A DNA stretch of 64,000 nucleotides from Acidobacteriota bacterium (GTDB taxonomy: Bacteria > Acidobacteriota > Terriglobia > Acidiferrales > UBA7541), in assembly GCA_021818865.1 (NCBI GenBank), contig JAKASX010000007.1:1-64000 (forward strand), written 5' to 3'. The translations under genes and the position numbers were made by a program. The notes under the pieces are model-generated. The model ran no database searches. It was given only the letters and a program-made list of their open reading frames with translations, and was not told the DNA's origin. Below are positions 11,187 to 20,680 of the stretch, in pieces; positions within the stretch are counted from its first letter, which is position 1, and the number at the start of each line of letters is the position of its first letter.

Positions 11187-12071
11187 TTAGAAGATGAGGA
11201 TGGGCAGTCCGTCCCAGTCCCAGTCGTCCTTCGGACGGTATTTCGGTCCTCTTCCGCAGCCTTCCGGCGCGCCCAATCGCTCGGTCAAGCTCCATTCCTG
11301 ATCGCAGCCCAGACCCTCGATGTCCGGTTTCTGGTCGGGCCGCGGCGGCTTCATTCCGGCGTAGGCGGGATTCAAGGCGAGCGTGGACGACCCGACCATC
11401 CGCGCCACTTGCTTGAAAGCCTGGCGCGCGGCCGCGTCGTTCGACTGTTTGGCCGGCTCGTTCCACACATGCAAGTTCACAACGCCTTCGACGATCACTG
11501 GCGTCCAGGGCAACGGGCGGAATTCGAGCGGAGACGTGGAATCGGGATGGATGTAGGTGAAAGCGACGATTTCGGGAACCATCTTCGGCTGCACCACCGG
11601 CTGCGGCGTTCCCGTAAAAAAATGCTTCCCGTGCGATTCGTGCATCAGACGGAGCGGCGTGATGAAATCCGGAAACGGAAATGCCAGTTCGCTGTGCGAC
11701 AGGTCCGCGTTCACCTTGAGCCCTGAGAAAACCGCGTTTTGGTGCGGATCGATCGCTTCGAATCCCGGCCGCGGCCCAGTCATCACCCCCGAAAGTCGGT
11801 ATTTGGTGCTGCGTTCGAGCGGAATCTCCTGCATCCAGTCGCCCGCCAGATAGGCGCGATCCGGCCCCGCGTCGGGCAGATATACGCGCACCTCGCTCTG
11901 CCCGAAATCGAGGATGCAAAGACCGTGGAACAACACGTTTAAGCGTTGAAACGGCGACGCCGAGCGATCGATCTGCCAACCGGAAGCGGCGCGGGCCAGC
12001 GATGCGAAAAATGCCATCGCCGGCCCGGCCGCGAGTACGCGCAGAATCTCCCGCCTGGTGAACCCGCTCAT
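11187..12071 (-). CDS. Tat-exported protein of unknown function (paralogue A)
   Basis: Unrecognised exported protein, about 294 residues. The N-terminus 'MSGFTRREILRVLAAGPAMAFFASLARAA' has a twin-arginine motif, a hydrophobic stretch and an AxA cleavage site, so it should leave the cell folded. The mature part shares several blocks with the next gene: 'LNVLFHGLCILD', 'YLAGDW', 'FFTGTPQP', a following 'VPEIVAFTY' and 'VNLHVW'. The C-terminus is acidic and aromatic ('DDWDWDGLPILIF'). No catalytic motif is evident. The ATG at 12071 is used because the signal peptide starts there. A cofactor-containing or folded-before-export protein is suggested by Tat use only. Confidence 0.7.
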   Translation of the reverse strand: MSGFTRREILRVLAAGPAMAFFASLARAASGWQIDRSASPFQRLNVLFHGLCILDFGQSEVRVYLPDAGPDRAYLAGDWMQEIPLERSTKYRLSGVMTGPRPGFEAIDPHQNAVFSGLKVNADLSHSELAFPFPDFITPLRLMHESHGKHFFTGTPQPVVQPKMVPEIVAFTYIHPDSTSPLEFRPLPWTPVIVEGVVNLHVWNEPAKQSNDAAARQAFKQVARMVGSSTLALNPAYAGMKPPRPDQKPDIEGLGCDQEWSLTERLGAPEGCGRGPKYRPKDDWDWDGLPILIF

Positions 12072-12137: not shown

Positions 12138-13049
12138 TCAATACAGAAATATCGACGAGCAGGAAACCGGGGGCTTTGTTTTGCAACAAGGAGCTTTGGG
12201 GTGCTCCCCGTTCTTCGTTCGTTCGAAGAGTGTATGTTCCTGGTCCGGAGTGAGGCCTGGAACTCCCGTTTTCTTATCCACGAGTGGCATGCCCGCATTG
12301 TAGTATGCGGAATTTGCATGGAGATTCGAGAAACCGGTCAGCTGCTTCAGTACAGCAAATCGCTTTCGAAACATCGCCGGATCGGGTGCGCCAGGTTCCA
12401 TGGCCCAGATGTGAAGATTGATGTAGCCTCCCTGGACGTCGGGAGTCCAGGGAAACTCGGCGACCGGCGGTGCCGAAAATACTCTTTGAATGGACGGCAG
12501 GCTCTGGAGTCTCTGATAGGTGAACACCACAACCTCGGGTATGGCGTGCGGTTGCACGTATGGTTGGGGCGTGCCCGTGAAGAACGGCGCGCTGCCAATC
12601 TGGTGCGCGAGGCGTAGGAAGGAGTATCCGTTCGGGTAGGGCAGAAAGAAACGGAAATGCGAGTATTCCGTATGCAAGCTGCCGCCAGGGAACACCGGAT
12701 TCTCGGTAGGCTGCAATTTCGCTTCCGGCGGACCTGCGGCCGGTTGGCCCGGCGACTGAGAAACGTTAAGGGCGAGACGCTCACCCTTCGCAATCGCTTG
12801 TTCTTTCAGCCAGGTCCCGGCCAAGTAATCATGTCCTTGATGCGAAATGGGCGGGTAGAGCGTGACACCTTTTCCGCGCACGTCCACCACGAACATCCCA
12901 TGAATCACAACGTTCAGCGTGTAGGAATTTTGTGAACCCGGTCGCGAATCCAGGAATTCTCCCCATGCGCCCGGTCGGAGGCCGGCCAATGCTGCGCCCG
13001 CCCCCAGGCCATAGAGAAATTCACGCCTACCCAGCTTTTTCATCAGCAT
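12138..13049 (-). CDS. Tat-exported protein of unknown function (paralogue B)
   Basis: Paralogue of the neighbouring downstream gene, 303 residues (start ATG at 13049 or two codons later). Signal 'KKLGRREFLYGLGAGAALAG' carries the twin-arginine motif. Shared blocks are 'LNVVIHGMFVVD', 'YLAGTW', 'FFTGTPQP', then 'IPEVVVFTY' and 'INLHIWAMEPG'. Order and spacing of these blocks are conserved, which supports ancient tandem duplication. The tail is cysteine-rich ('APCCKTKPPVSCSSIF'), unlike paralogue A. No known domain recognised. The two genes are 66 bases apart on the same strand and likely cotranscribed; the CHAT-protease gene ends 40 bases upstream, so they may belong to the same expression unit. 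Confidence 0.7.
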   Translation of the reverse strand: MLMKKLGRREFLYGLGAGAALAGLRPGAWGEFLDSRPGSQNSYTLNVVIHGMFVVDVRGKGVTLYPPISHQGHDYLAGTWLKEQAIAKGERLALNVSQSPGQPAAGPPEAKLQPTENPVFPGGSLHTEYSHFRFFLPYPNGYSFLRLAHQIGSAPFFTGTPQPYVQPHAIPEVVVFTYQRLQSLPSIQRVFSAPPVAEFPWTPDVQGGYINLHIWAMEPGAPDPAMFRKRFAVLKQLTGFSNLHANSAYYNAGMPLVDKKTGVPGLTPDQEHTLFERTKNGEHPKAPCCKTKPPVSCSSIFLY

Positions 13050-13089: not shown

Positions 13090-16000
13090 TCACCGGACGT
13101 AGACGCTGAACGCGGCCCAATAATAAGGGTGAGCCGTAGCCGGAGCTTGACGAACCACTCGCGCCGCCCGTTCGAGCGCTACTGCCACGCCGTCGCCCGC
13201 CAGCAGCCGTTTGTAAAATTTTTCCATGAGCCGGGTGGTCACCGCCGAATTTACGTTCCATCGGCTCGCCACCACATCCGGCACGCCCGCCAACAGAAAC
13301 GCACCCACCAGACCTTCGGGGTCCACCAGCGCCGCGCCTTCGCCCGATGCGGTCGAGCAGGCCGAAAGCACCACCAACCGGCATTCGCGCAATTCGCGCG
13401 AATTGATTTGAGCGGCCGCCAGCACCTCGGCGCCGCGAGCGCGCTCCCTTCCCGAATTCCACTCCTGCGTGTCATTTCCCGCCGCGAGGAGCAATCCCCT
13501 CCGGCTGCCTTCCGCCAGCGCGTGGCCCGCGAAATGCAAGATCTGAGCGTCCGGCAAAGCGCGCAGCACCGCTTCAGCCGAAGCCGCGCGTCCTGTCAGC
13601 AGGGTCGCCTGGCGGAAATCCGCCGCCACGGCCCGCGCTTCGCTGTCCGCTTCGGGCAGCGGCGGAAGAAGCGACGCCCACGCGCCTTCGATCGCCGGCG
13701 CGCCAATCGCGAGCATGTGATCGGCGCCTGTGAATCTCGCTTTCGGTCCGCGCACGTTTTGATAGCCGAGCCCCGGCGACAAAAGAATCGCGAATCGGCT
13801 GCCGAGGTATTTCCCGTGCGGACCGACCAGCGCCGCAAACGGTATCTCTCCGATTGCACGGTCCGTTTCAAACGCGATCGCGCGTCCCGGGCTGAGCCTT
13901 TCCGCCACCGGCGCGATCAACCAACCGTAGAGCTTCCGCCCATCGCTTCGCAGCAAATCAAGATTGGATTTCGGATCGGCGCATTCGCGGCCGAATCGCC
14001 GCGCCACCCGGTTGAACTCGCGTTTCGGCACGGCAACCCAGCGCGCCGAAATTCCGCGGTCGTCCAACGTCCAGATTTCGACTCCATCGCGAAACTGCGC
14101 GTAGCTGACGACCGTTTCTTTCCGCAAGCCGGCTTGCCGGCTGCGAATCCACCGCGAGAGATTCGCGCGCAGCCGTGCGAAATCCGCCGCATCGGACGAA
14201 ATTCGCGGAGACGGCGGCATCGGCAGCAATCGCTCGGCGGAATCGCCGGCATTTTCCTGCGCGCGCACCGGACCCGAGCGGTACCACTCCCACAGCCCTA
14301 GCGCAGCCACGGGATCTTGCCGCCCCTCCAGTTCCGTGCGAACCAGGCCGCGATACACGCCGGCGTACCACTCGGTCCACGAAACGCGGTCGGCGCCGCT
14401 GCGCAGCGAAAAAAGCCCGCGTTCGGCAATCGCCGCCGCATCCAGCAGCGAATCCTCCGCCTTCGCCACGCTGCCTTCGGCCAGGTACGCTTCGCCGAGC
14501 GCCCGAAAATAATTCGGCGCGAACGCGCTGCCGGTCGCCCGTTCCACCATCGGCCGCATCCGCAGCAATCGCTTCAGAGCCAGTTCCGGCTCGCCAGTTT
14601 GCACCTCGAAATCGGCCAGGTTGATCTGGCAGACCCCTTCGTAAGTGATGAAACTCGGATCGGGAGGCAGACTGGCGAAAATATTCGACGCCCGCTGAAA
14701 CTGCTTCCGCGCGGTCGTCCGGTCGCCAGCCAGATTCGCCAGCGTGGCCAGGCGAAAGCGGGCAATCGCTTCCCACGAGCGATTCGGCGTCTTGCGAATC
14801 ATTCCGACGCCTTCCTTCGCCAGAGCTTCGGCCACCAGCCAATCGCCGGCGTCTTCGGCGTCGAAGGTCATATCGGAAAAAAACTGATACGCGCGAATAG
14901 GCGGAAATTCGCCGCGCCAATATTCCTCGAGGCCCGCCCGATCGTCGCGCCAGGCGTCGCGGTAATCGTCCACGTCAGAGGCGAATCCGGCCTGAAATCC
15001 GATCGCGCGCAGGTAAAGCGCTCCATAGCCGCTTTCGCACGCGACGTTCACCGCCCGGTCGGTCTCCTGGCGAAAGGCGGTCAAATGCCAAAGGATGTTG
15101 TCGCAAACCGCTTCGTCCAGCAGCAACTGCCCTTCGATCCACGGAAAGGCGCGACCGCCAACTTCGTCGAGACCCTGCCGCGCGGCGCCCAGGCAGGCCG
15201 TCGCTTCGTTCGATTCCAGCTCGTAGGCGTAGGCCAATTCCGTTTGCGCGCGCAGCAAGGCCGGATTCCGCGCCGCCCCGAGCAACTTCACCGCTCGCTG
15301 CGCCTGCTCCAGACCCTCGTCCGGCCGCCCTTCCTCATTCAGCCGCACCGCTCGCCCTAGCGCTTCAAGACCGGGAGCCGTCGAGCGGGTGGAGGGTGCT
15401 TCCAGAACGTCTTTGAGCCACTGGTCGTGGTGCCTTAGGGAGAGTTCATTCGCCAGACGTTCGAGCGCGCTCCGTTTGGCCTGTTGCTGCGGCGCAAGCG
15501 CGCCGCCGTGGGAATAAAAATCGGGCAACCAATTCTTGACGGCGACGTCCAGCAGTTCTTCATCGGCCGAATTCATCGAGTCGCGCCGGTCCTGCGGCTG
15601 TTTCATGCGCACGGCCAGCCACGCCGCCGCGGCCCGGGGACTCGCTGGCGGCAATTCGGCTTTCGGCGATGCGCTGAGCTGTTTTTTCAGCCGGTCCAGA
15701 TGGAGCCGCGCGACCTTCGTCGCCCATTCGCTCGAAGGATCAAGCTTTAAATACCGCTGCCAGTCGTCCATCGCGAGGGGCAGCGAACCGATGCGCTCGT
15801 AGACGAGCGCTCGATTGAATAGCGCCACTTCGCTTTTCGGCTCAAGCTCGAGCGCCTGGGAGAGATGCTGCGCCGCGGCCATGAAATCCTCGTCGCGTTC
15901 TTCCGTCAGCCCCAGCTCGTATTCCGCCGTCGCCAGATCGGTCAGGATGCTCGGTGAATCCGGCTGGAATCGCAGCGCCTGCTCGAGGGTCGTCCGCGCC

Positions 16001-16869
16001 TGGCTGAAATGGCCCGCGACGAGTTGCGCGCGCCCATCGAGCGCGAGCCACGCGGCGCTTGACGGATGCGCCGCCAGTTGCCGGACGATCAGCACCTCGG
16101 CCCGCAGCAGCGGCAGCGGCCGCGTCGCGCTTTCTCCGCGCTCGGTCGCCATCGGCGCGTACGCGGCGCCGGGAATCCGGAGTTGCAAAACGCGATTGGC
16201 GCTGTACGCCTGCGCCAGCAGTTGCCGCGCCGAATGCTCCGGCGCGCCCTGCCGTCCAATCACCAAAAATGCGATCAAAACTGCTGCCGCGACCGCAACC
16301 GCCGCGCTCCACGCCCAAATCCAGCGCCGCCGCGTGGCCGCGGGCTGCTTGCTCGCCGGCGCTGGCGTTTGGCCCATCGCCAATCGCGCCGCCAGCGGCT
16401 GTTGCACTTCTTTCCGCGCGCTGGGCAGTTGGCTCAGCAATCGTTTTTCTTCTTCGCTCCACTCGTCGGAAAAATCCTCCGTTGCCTCGCGCAGCAGCGG
16501 TCCGCAGTACGAGCATCGCGCGGCGTGATCCATCCACGCCGCGGCCTGATCCGCGTCCACGAGGCCCGCGGCCACCCGCGGCCATTCCGATTCCGGCGGG
16601 CATTCCGGAGTTCTCATGCGCTCCTCGCTGATGCCCAGCCGCAATCCATCCAGTTGCGCCTGCGCCGCGCGAAGTTCCGCCACGCGCCGGCCGCATTCGG
16701 GGCAGCCGGCTGCATGTTGCGCCGCATTTTCGAGTTCGGCATCGCTATGTCCGCCTTCACCGGCTTCCACCAGCCGATTCAGCAGATCGGGGCCGAGGTG
16801 TTGCAGTGGCTCGCTCAAAGACCCTTGCCATTCCTTCCCTTGTATTTTTGAACGCCCTTTACCCGCCAA
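13090..16869 (-). CDS. Zinc-finger / TM / TPR / CHAT-protease fusion protein
   Basis: A 1259-residue membrane protein. Domains in order: two anti-sigma-type zinc-finger motifs ('HAAGCPEC' with H52, C56, C59, and 'HAARCSYC' with H115, C119, C122), one transmembrane helix (about 183-205), a long alpha-helical TPR region (about 225-850), and a C-terminal CHAT caspase-like domain whose dyad is H1116 in 'LHFAGHAL' and C1171 in 'VLSACSTASGEG'. CHAT proteases cleave partner proteins in peptidase-based signalling and immunity. The N-terminal cytosolic zinc fingers next to an ECF sigma gene suggest that this protein binds the sigma factor and that signal-driven proteolysis or TPR sensing controls its release; this is inference. 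Start TTG at 16869 with GGAAAAGG upstream; no in-frame ATG occurs before the fingers. Confidence 0.87.
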   Translation of the reverse strand: MAGKGRSKIQGKEWQGSLSEPLQHLGPDLLNRLVEAGEGGHSDAELENAAQHAAGCPECGRRVAELRAAQAQLDGLRLGISEERMRTPECPPESEWPRVAAGLVDADQAAAWMDHAARCSYCGPLLREATEDFSDEWSEEEKRLLSQLPSARKEVQQPLAARLAMGQTPAPASKQPAATRRRWIWAWSAAVAVAAAVLIAFLVIGRQGAPEHSARQLLAQAYSANRVLQLRIPGAAYAPMATERGESATRPLPLLRAEVLIVRQLAAHPSSAAWLALDGRAQLVAGHFSQARTTLEQALRFQPDSPSILTDLATAEYELGLTEERDEDFMAAAQHLSQALELEPKSEVALFNRALVYERIGSLPLAMDDWQRYLKLDPSSEWATKVARLHLDRLKKQLSASPKAELPPASPRAAAAWLAVRMKQPQDRRDSMNSADEELLDVAVKNWLPDFYSHGGALAPQQQAKRSALERLANELSLRHHDQWLKDVLEAPSTRSTAPGLEALGRAVRLNEEGRPDEGLEQAQRAVKLLGAARNPALLRAQTELAYAYELESNEATACLGAARQGLDEVGGRAFPWIEGQLLLDEAVCDNILWHLTAFRQETDRAVNVACESGYGALYLRAIGFQAGFASDVDDYRDAWRDDRAGLEEYWRGEFPPIRAYQFFSDMTFDAEDAGDWLVAEALAKEGVGMIRKTPNRSWEAIARFRLATLANLAGDRTTARKQFQRASNIFASLPPDPSFITYEGVCQINLADFEVQTGEPELALKRLLRMRPMVERATGSAFAPNYFRALGEAYLAEGSVAKAEDSLLDAAAIAERGLFSLRSGADRVSWTEWYAGVYRGLVRTELEGRQDPVAALGLWEWYRSGPVRAQENAGDSAERLLPMPPSPRISSDAADFARLRANLSRWIRSRQAGLRKETVVSYAQFRDGVEIWTLDDRGISARWVAVPKREFNRVARRFGRECADPKSNLDLLRSDGRKLYGWLIAPVAERLSPGRAIAFETDRAIGEIPFAALVGPHGKYLGSRFAILLSPGLGYQNVRGPKARFTGADHMLAIGAPAIEGAWASLLPPLPEADSEARAVAADFRQATLLTGRAASAEAVLRALPDAQILHFAGHALAEGSRRGLLLAAGNDTQEWNSGRERARGAEVLAAAQINSRELRECRLVVLSACSTASGEGAALVDPEGLVGAFLLAGVPDVVASRWNVNSAVTTRLMEKFYKRLLAGDGVAVALERAARVVRQAPATAHPYYWAAFSVYVR

Positions 16870-16891
16870 ACCCTTTTCCGCGCAAGCCCGG

Positions 16892-17560
16892 TTAATCCTC
16901 CAATCGGTTCCTGCCCGGCGCGGTCGCCGCCGAGCCGCTTTCGGCCAAACTTTCGCGCAGCATCCGCGTCAAGCGGAAAATCGTGCTTTCCACTCCTTTC
17001 ACCGTCAGGTCCATTCCGGGAAGATCGGCAATCGTGCTGGCGCTCATTCCCGCTCGGTAATACAGGCGGAAAATGCGCCGGTCCCGCTCGCCCGTCGGGC
17101 CAAGGCTCAGCTGTTCCAGTCGCCGCTCGATTTCGCCGAGCAACGTGGCCCGCTCGATCTGCCGGCCCGCGGCCGGGTCGGCCGGATCGCTTTGGAATGG
17201 GCTGGAAAGCGACAGGGTTCCTTCGTCGCTGCCGCGCTTGGCCGCGTGAGTCCGTTTGAAATAGTCGTGAACCACCCGTGCGGTGACGACTTTCAGGTAT
17301 CCGAAGAAGGCTTCCGGGTGGCGGGGCTCGAATTCCCGCAGCAGCCGCCTGCGGTCGGCGCAGATTTTGACAAACGTCTCCTGCACCAGATCCTCGAGGA
17401 CCAGCGGCGAGGTTTCTCCCCAACGCCGCGCTGTGCGCAGTGCAACGCCGGCAATCGTCGGCTGAAACCGACGAACGAATTCTTCCCAAGCTCCGGGGTC
17501 GGCCGAATCAACGCATGCCCGCACCAGTTCGGTGGCTGCCAGGTTTGTATAGTAGGGCAT
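16892..17560 (-). CDS. ECF-type sigma-70 family RNA polymerase sigma factor
   Basis: Sigma factor of about 222 residues containing region 2 ('AWEEFVRRFQPTIAGVALRT...LEDLVQETFVKIC') and region 4 ('DRRIFRLYYRAGMSASTIA...VESTIFRLTRMLRESL'). A 'GMDLTVKGVEST' helix gives the promoter -35 contact. It directs RNA polymerase to an alternative regulon. The start ATG at 17560 ('MPYYTNLAATELVRA') fits the usual ECF N-terminus; the frame is open 260 bases further but that part lacks family similarity. It precedes the zinc-finger/CHAT gene by 22 bases, so the pair is probably cotranscribed as sigma factor plus membrane-bound regulator. Confidence 0.88.
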   Translation of the reverse strand: MPYYTNLAATELVRACVDSADPGAWEEFVRRFQPTIAGVALRTARRWGETSPLVLEDLVQETFVKICADRRRLLREFEPRHPEAFFGYLKVVTARVVHDYFKRTHAAKRGSDEGTLSLSSPFQSDPADPAAGRQIERATLLGEIERRLEQLSLGPTGERDRRIFRLYYRAGMSASTIADLPGMDLTVKGVESTIFRLTRMLRESLAESGSAATAPGRNRLED

Positions 17561-18032
17561 GTAAATCGTGGGGATTCTACACCCGCACGCGCCTTCGCGG
17601 AATCGCTGTCTAGAACCATTTGCGCCGGGGTTTCCCTGCCTCGCGCATCGGCGTCGTGCGGCCGGGCAATTCCGCGCGAAAAGGGATTCCGCCTCGTTGC
17701 GCGTTCGTTCCTTGTAACGGAGAGACCATCCCCATCGGTCAGGTGATCTCTCTGGAACACCCGGGGATGCCGAGTCAGAGGGAGGCGCGGGAAACCCGTT
17801 CGGTGGCTCGCGCGGGATCACAATCGCCTCCCTCCTCAGTGCCTGGCAACGAGGAGCGACGGGAGAAAACGGAGTTTATCCGCCAGAAGCCGGTCCTACG
17901 CCTCCGGCAACAGGCTCACCTACTCCGCCCAACTCCGCGATCCCGTCGCGCCTCGCCAAGTCGCCCACGCACAAAAATTCGCGGTGTGGCGCGTCGCGCG
18001 TGTCCCAATTTCGCCGGGTGCCGCAACCCGAC
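17561..18032. other. Intergenic region, no gene supported
   Basis: About 470 bases upstream of the sigma gene. Open frames exist on both strands but none shows family similarity, a Shine-Dalgarno or consistent codon pattern. It should contain the promoter of the sigma/CHAT unit on the minus strand; no clear -35/-10 pair was found, as expected if the sigma factor is autoregulated. Confidence 0.5.
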
Positions 18033-18545
18033 CTAATTATCCGTAATTCTCACCAGCACCACGCCGTGCCCCGGCACCCTCGCCGTGTAGCTGCTGTGGA
18101 ACGTTCCAAGGTCCTTGCGTTCCCACAAGTCGCGCACCTGCTCGGTCGAGCCGACGCCGATCTGGCCGAAATAGACAGTAATCGGTTCGGGCGAATACCC
18201 AGGTTGAAGAGCGCCACCACGCGCGAGCGATCCGCCATCACTTTCATCCAGATTTGCAGCGGACCCTCCTGCCAGATGCGGTAGCCTTCGTTGCCGGCCG
18301 GATCCTGGTCCACGGCGATCACGTCGGGATTGGTGAGAATCGCCAGCGTTTGGGGCGTCATTTCCGTCAAATCGTTTCCGGCGATGAGCGGCGCGGAGAG
18401 CAGGCACCACAAACTCATGTGCGTTTTTTCCTCGTTCGGCCGCATGCCGCCGTTTCCGATTTCGAGCATGTCCGGATCGTTCCAATGTCCCGGTCCGGCG
18501 AAGCGTGGGAACGAATCGGACGGAGCCAGCGAGTGCTGAATCATC
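18033..18545 (-). pseudogene. GH27 alpha-galactosidase C-terminal remnant, truncated and frameshifted
   Basis: Two overlapping minus-strand frames together encode the C-terminal third of a family-27 glycoside hydrolase. The first frame gives 'FAGPGHWNDPDMLEIGNGG', 'THMSLWCLLSAPLIAGNDL', 'AILTNPDVIAVDQDPAGNEG' and 'QIWMKVMADRSRVVALFNLG'. At about 18198-18210 the reading shifts by one base into a second frame continuing 'YSPEPITVYFGQIGV', 'VRDLWERKDLGTFHSS', and 'VPGHGVVLVRI' before a stop near 18033. The catalytic N-terminal barrel, including the nucleophile, is missing; upstream of 18545 the sequence no longer matches. GH27 enzymes release galactose from alpha-galactosides, which fits the intact galactose genes 3-7 kb away. 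A frameshift alone could be an assembly error, but the missing N-terminus shows real decay. Confidence 0.8.
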
Positions 18546-20314: not shown

Positions 20315-20680
20315 GTGACAGTATCGCTAGCGAATGTTCCTTCGCCGCCACGAGCGCTCCAAGGATGCGAAGGGGGCAGCGGGAACGCCTTCGCCGACAT
20401 CGGCCTGACCAATCCCGAGGAGCGTCTTGCGAAGGCCGATCTTGCGATTTGCATCGGCGAGGCCATCCGTTCGCGGCGGCTTACCCAAACTCAGGCTGCC
20501 CGCACGCTCAAAATCGATCAGCCGAAAATTTCTCGCCTGTTGCGAGGCCAGCTTTCCGGCTTTTCGACGGAAAGTCTCATGCACTTTCTGACTCTGCTCG
20601 GCCGCGACGTTGAGATTCGGGTGAAAGCCGCGCCGCGCTCACGCCGCCAAGGACGTCTCCGCGTCCTCGTAGCCGCATAA
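20315..20680 (+). CDS. XRE-family HTH protein, HigA-like antitoxin without a visible toxin
   Basis: A 121-residue (or slightly shorter) helix-turn-helix protein. The N-terminal segment 'GNAFADIGLTNPEERLAKADL' and the HTH 'RRLTQTQAARTLKIDQPKISRLLRGQ' followed by 'GFSTESLMHFLTLLGRDVEI' match the HigA-like antitoxins that normally follow a RelE/HigB-type (gp49-like) toxin gene. Between 20224 and 20314 there is no room for that toxin and no readable remnant, so this is an orphan. The GTG at 20315 is the first start in frame; its Shine-Dalgarno is poor and a start nearer 20360 is possible. It would autoregulate by binding its own promoter if still functional. Confidence 0.62.
   Translation: MTVSLANVPSPPRALQGCEGGSGNAFADIGLTNPEERLAKADLAICIGEAIRSRRLTQTQAARTLKIDQPKISRLLRGQLSGFSTESLMHFLTLLGRDVEIRVKAAPRSRRQGRLRVLVAA

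Follow-up and report, generated by a model that had tools for sequence, protein, structure and literature searches.

An ECF sigma factor operon of Acidobacteriota with a predicted membrane anti-sigma factor that carries a CHAT protease domain: a divergent family of the DdvS-DdvA kind

Membrane anti-sigma factors of the RseA/DegS/RseP type are released by proteolysis in the envelope. DdvA reportedly forms transmembrane dimers with a periplasmic TPR-CHAT part whose His-Cys site is incomplete, and autoproteolysis of DdvA, followed by the action of RseP, is reported to have been proposed in 2024 in Science Advances. DdvA and its partner, the sigma factor DdvS, come from Myxococcus xanthus (PDB 8rlz, 8rot and 8rw5; Bernal-Bernal 2018 and 2024, as cited in PMC12288465), and the signal that inactivates DdvA was not known as of 2015 (PMC4374960). 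The kind of system that we describe here is already known from this pair; the protein encoded in the window, by which we mean the whole stretch of 64,000 nucleotides that was analysed, belongs to a divergent family of the same type in Acidobacteriota, one that is new.

Other described systems share parts of the arrangement. In Craspase/CASP, a TPR-CHAT protease (Csx29) is likewise tied to an ECF sigma factor (CASP-sigma) and its inhibitor (Csx30), which is a separate protein cut by the CHAT protease; however, the parts of Craspase are separate soluble proteins that are activated by CRISPR RNA recognition (PMC10028731). In addition, Csx30 is no zinc-binding anti-sigma (ZAS) protein, unlike the anti-sigma factor of the window, and there are no CRISPR genes at this locus. 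An assignment to Craspase (type III-E) was rejected, as neither Cas7-11/gRAMP nor a Csx30 partner is present and the neighbours are third genes, described below, and metabolic genes. In CalpL-CalpT-CalpS, an anti-sigma factor is also cut by a protease to free the sigma factor, but CalpL is a Lon-type SAVED protease triggered by cyclic oligoadenylate, and its domains are unrelated to those found here (PMC11417357). ECF54 of Actinobacteria resembles the window in having CHAT-domain proteins near the sigma factor but is described without an anti-sigma factor (PMC8999054), whereas here anti-sigma and CHAT domains lie in one protein; assignment to ECF54 was rejected on account of this fusion.

All parts of the operon lie on the minus strand, as do the features of the window given below unless marked otherwise. 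In the order of transcription, a promoter-like element (17680..17706) is followed by the ECF sigma factor gene P0002 (16892..17560; 222 aa), the large gene P0001 (13090..16818, or from TTG 16869), and two tandem copies of a third gene, both of which encode proteins with a Tat signal (copy a, 12138..13049, 303 aa; copy b, 11187..12071, 294 aa). An earlier note on this DNA had described a unit of two genes, the large gene lying 22 bases after the sigma gene. The large gene does follow the sigma gene, but the conserved unit is bigger, taking in the promoter element and two further genes down to position 11187, and the 22 bases presume a start at TTG 16869. Comparison of three species of the genus indicates that TTG 16818, with an AAGG Shine-Dalgarno-like stretch, is the conserved start. 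It is probably the true start of P0001, in which case the spacing is 73 bases and the residue numbers used here drop by 17.

P0002 was confirmed as the ECF sigma factor that had been read from the sequence: it scores 57 bits against TIGR02937 (cut-off 42.9), lies above the cut-offs of Sigma70_r2 and Sigma70_ECF as well, and has regions 2 and 4 only, with region 4 giving only a weak model match. Upstream of the sigma gene, GAACG-N15-TCCCTTT is present with identical spacing in the window and at the related loci L035, L146, and L152, and in L149 as AAACG. The 3.97 Mb genome of the window contains one exact match, at its own operon, while genome G272 contains two, both upstream of its sigma gene. 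Genome-wide counts of the pattern are not above those of a reversed-pattern control; the informative part is its position. Classical ECF promoter motifs (GGAAC..GTC and similar) show no excess over shuffles upstream of the sigma gene. The predicted element suggests a local regulon, and we infer that the sigma factor probably drives its own operon.

A search of 399 genomes of the class yielded a strong relative in 29. The architecture reported for P0001 in the earlier note, with two anti-sigma-type zinc motifs, one transmembrane (TM) helix, TPRs, and a CHAT domain that retains both residues of the His/Cys dyad, holds up. The ligands of the first ZAS motif (H24..H52xxxC56xxC59; 16693..16800) and the second (C90..H115xxxC119xxC122; 16504..16602) are all invariant in alignment A1, the first that was made, which has five members. 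Across 33 relatives, the four ligands of the second motif, the one that matches DdvA, are the sole invariant columns, and the first motif is absent or altered in part of the family, among some of the more distant relatives. Pfam calls no zinc finger in P0001 of the window itself and detects zf-HC2 in 12 of the 33 relatives (best 9e-6). When the N-termini were used in a profile search of the PDB, DdvA (8rlz) was matched with E = 1e-3, and RsiW, RslA, and ChrR with E of only 0.2-0.6; Foldseek with the N-terminus of P0001 gave anti-sigma factors the top match probabilities, yet at E > 1, which is not significant. We infer that P0001 is likely a zinc-binding anti-sigma factor that would trap the sigma factor with cytosolic ZAS domains. 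Hydropathy places the single TM helix at residues ~184-206 (16252..16320), followed by two regions matching Pfam TPR families (14170..16221) and by the CHAT domain at residues 976-1255 (13105..13944; Pfam CHAT, E = 2e-55, 189 bits). The sole other CHAT gene of the genome (L002; G000:C19:104718-105533) encodes a TPR-CHAT protein, with no zinc anti-sigma part visible in the available stretch.

The best match of the CHAT profile in the PDB is 8rot_B (E = 6e-12), the 991-residue chain of 8rot and 8rw5, which does not differ from DdvA over the N-terminal stretch that was matched. Like DdvS-DdvA, the window locus pairs an ECF sigma factor with a membrane anti-sigma factor, which in one chain combines an N-terminal zinc domain, a single TM helix, TPRs, and a C-terminal CHAT domain. 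Unlike DdvA, P0001 has two ZAS motifs rather than the one matched in DdvA, is ~1242 rather than 991 residues long, keeps the segments SRWxVDS and HPYYWAAF in its CHAT domain, and is followed by a third gene. Furthermore, DdvS governs a CBASS/CRISPR island, whereas the surroundings of the window operon showed no defence genes.

On balance, we think it somewhat probable that the operon serves envelope signalling and is of the same kind as DdvS-DdvA, with CHAT-driven release of the sigma factor. By analogy, the TPR region would sense a signal in the envelope and CHAT would become active; CHAT would then cut the anti-sigma stalk, either in its own chain or in a neighbouring one. An RseP-type protease would then cut within the membrane, and the sigma factor thus freed would drive its own operon. 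The third-gene proteins would be the output of the operon and might serve as a ligand or a second substrate. Proteolysis of the regulator, as proposed for DdvA, is a plausible mechanism, and it would differ from the RseA/DegS/RseP type in that the anti-sigma factor would itself contain the protease that makes the first cut. The genome encodes an M50 protease of the RseP family, but M50 proteases are present in nearly all bacteria, so that the presence of one says little.

The third gene is a conserved part of the operon. Using leave-one-out profiles from which near relatives were omitted, all 30 class-level members, from 27 loci, were recovered at E <= 2.2e-7 (3e-31 for copy a and 5e-35 for copy b of the window), E-values that are somewhat flattering since all profiles draw on the columns of a single master alignment. 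Each member ranked first or directly behind a tandem paralogue. Among the other classes of the phylum, 5 of 9 candidates fall below 0.01, which is weak support. A shared motif consists of a strand that closes with an invariant G, after which come P and H. Besides the window, L035, L169, and L172 carry two copies. Loci L150 and L151 carry no third gene; there, an opposite-strand gene facing the CHAT gene resembles clostripain-type (C11) peptidases by eye. Searches of the third protein against Pfam gave no family, and its predicted fold (pLDDT 63, low confidence) had no match in the PDB. Its signals vary, being Tat in the window and elsewhere Tat with a lipobox-like Cys, Sec lipoprotein, or, at about half of the loci, none. 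No link by co-variation was found between the TM helix of the CHAT protein, which is nearly constant, and these variable export signals.

These observations bear on the main rival explanation, that CHAT cuts the third-gene protein, as an effector or precursor, rather than the anti-sigma factor, the fusion then coupling expression of the substrate to that of its processing enzyme. We regard this as possible, if rather doubtful. The conservation of the third gene in 27 class-level loci is consistent with it, as is L195, where a CHAT lipoprotein is found with a third-gene candidate (profile E = 2e-4) in the absence of a sigma gene, and Craspase provides an example of a CHAT protease that cuts a separate protein, Csx30 (PMC10028731). 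However, CHAT is apparently outside, whereas about half of the third proteins have no signal sequence. The same finding counts against the envelope-signalling model, as it is a poor fit with a periplasmic partner.

A second explanation, which we consider improbable, holds that CHAT serves as a sensory scaffold and has no protease activity, and that other proteases or a change of shape free the sigma factor. The active site of DdvA is reportedly incomplete, and degenerate enzymes are common among sensor domains. In our alignment of CHAT domains, the His and Cys letters are also present in DdvA, but its SRWxVDS segment differs and its C-terminal HPYYWAAF segment is not aligned. In the window family, by contrast, the dyad named in the earlier note, H1116 (13522..13524) and C1171 (13357..13359), is not only present but kept in 37 of 37 relatives, and P0001 thus has, by sequence, both the fold and the His/Cys pair of a CHAT cysteine protease. 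Together with SRWxVDS and HPYYWAAF, the two segments missing in DdvA, this conserved pair suggests selection for protease activity, in keeping with CHAT-driven release.

The earlier note had also asked on which side of the membrane the TPR and CHAT parts lie, and comparison of relatives places them outside. The N-terminal side of the helix is more positive in 28 of 39 helices, less positive in 8, and equal in 3. A separate gene encodes the CHAT part at L172, L173, L042, L167, and L155, and its product begins with a signal anchor; outside this class, but within the phylum, the CHAT relatives L195, L197, L203, and L204 are lipoprotein-like or signal-anchored. Because the CHAT of split relatives has its own anchor and others look like lipoproteins, the TPR-CHAT part is likely extracytoplasmic, with the ZAS domains in the cytosol. 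This evidence comes from evolution and is consistent across independent rearrangements. It is very unlikely that TPR and CHAT are instead cytosolic, as in Craspase, with a hydrophobic helix that does not span the membrane. While half of the third proteins look cytosolic and the Craspase target is a cytosolic sigma inhibitor (PMC10028731), such an arrangement is at odds with the signal anchors or lipoprotein signals that CHAT relatives carry, whether split or stand-alone, and with the charge asymmetry of the helix.

According to the earlier note, the pairing of the two genes would fall if a genome survey showed their adjacency to be rare and coincidental. Our survey found it to be neither: at all 35 scorable class-level loci, the gene immediately upstream, read from the same strand, is a homologous sigma gene. 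By comparison, 71 other CHAT loci, with flanks reaching up to 8 kb, gave a sigma-profile match in 5 cases. Of those five, at least two, L093 and L097 from candidate division KSB1, resemble the same system in separate genes, which encode the sigma factor, a zinc-TM-TPR anti-sigma factor, and an exported TPR-CHAT protein. Gene order is preserved in both the split and the fused forms. The divergence of sigma, anti-sigma, and CHAT is correlated, with Mantel r of 0.54-0.81 against permutation maxima of 0.22-0.30, values to which shared species history contributes; for sigma versus the anti-sigma N-termini, r is 0.72 and the permutation maximum 0.30. The arrangement of sigma, anti-sigma-TM-TPR-CHAT, and third gene also occurs in further classes of the phylum, where the sigma-like genes are very divergent and their identity was judged by eye, with no profile; at L187, L189, L192, and L194, the CHAT protein that follows such a gene has an N-terminal domain without zinc ligands. 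With nothing found in its favour, a coincidental adjacency of functionally unrelated genes can practically be dismissed given the 35 loci, the order kept in split and fused forms, the correlated divergence, and the separate-gene version in KSB1. L093 and L097 also encode a membrane protein with a HEFAHA motif like that of zinc metalloproteases, of which L093 has a second copy.

In five genomes, the anti-sigma frame ends right after a homopolymer in the same linker between the domains, and CHAT lies in the -1 frame with no signal of its own. The run is T9 in L169 (G286:C17), L170 (G387:C91), and L244 (G667:C99) and A10 in L245 (G664:C10) and L168 (G398:C1). In frame, the A10 sites read A AAA AAG, resembling the dnaX slippery site. 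Runs of A or T of at least 9 are rare, numbering 37 in 2.37 Mb of loci that partly overlap. The break at the junction may reflect programmed frameshifting or slippage, or an assembly error; the window's own large gene is plainly in frame. A short anti-sigma factor that does not contain CHAT seems to be produced in these five genomes. This counts against the envelope-signalling model, since CHAT would then be dispensable for some anti-sigma molecules. A more far-reaching reading, which we offer tentatively, is that of a widespread three-part envelope system in which the anti-sigma factor and the caspase-like protease are made as one protein or joined on demand by frameshifting or slippage at A10/T9. 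Some cells would then make both plain and protease-bearing anti-sigma factors, and the third protein would be a dedicated ligand or substrate.

The possible defence role raised in the earlier note found no support: PADLOC gave no match among ten proteins of the operon and its neighbourhood, the other neighbours are metabolic genes, and the predicted promoter element has its single genomic match at this operon. The earlier observation was right and understated, and its interpretation right in outline, apart from the hint at defence. Also in the neighbourhood are an alpha-galactosidase remnant (18050-18544), of which only the Melibiase_2 end and part of Melibiase_C are left, and, on the plus strand, an HTH_37 antitoxin-like regulator (20315-20680) with no obvious toxin partner called alongside.

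Since no antiphage link is evident at the window locus, membrane CHAT anti-sigma factors may serve envelope sensing more generally. With this family, the one studied example, DdvA, becomes a widespread and diversified family with a complete-looking CHAT site. The family also brings a partner gene that is conserved yet uncharacterised, along with a candidate promoter, and its naturally occurring split and frameshift forms reveal where the domains meet. With a CHAT site that looks complete, it becomes possible to test the proposal that a caspase fold of the CHAT type would release an ECF sigma factor across a membrane.
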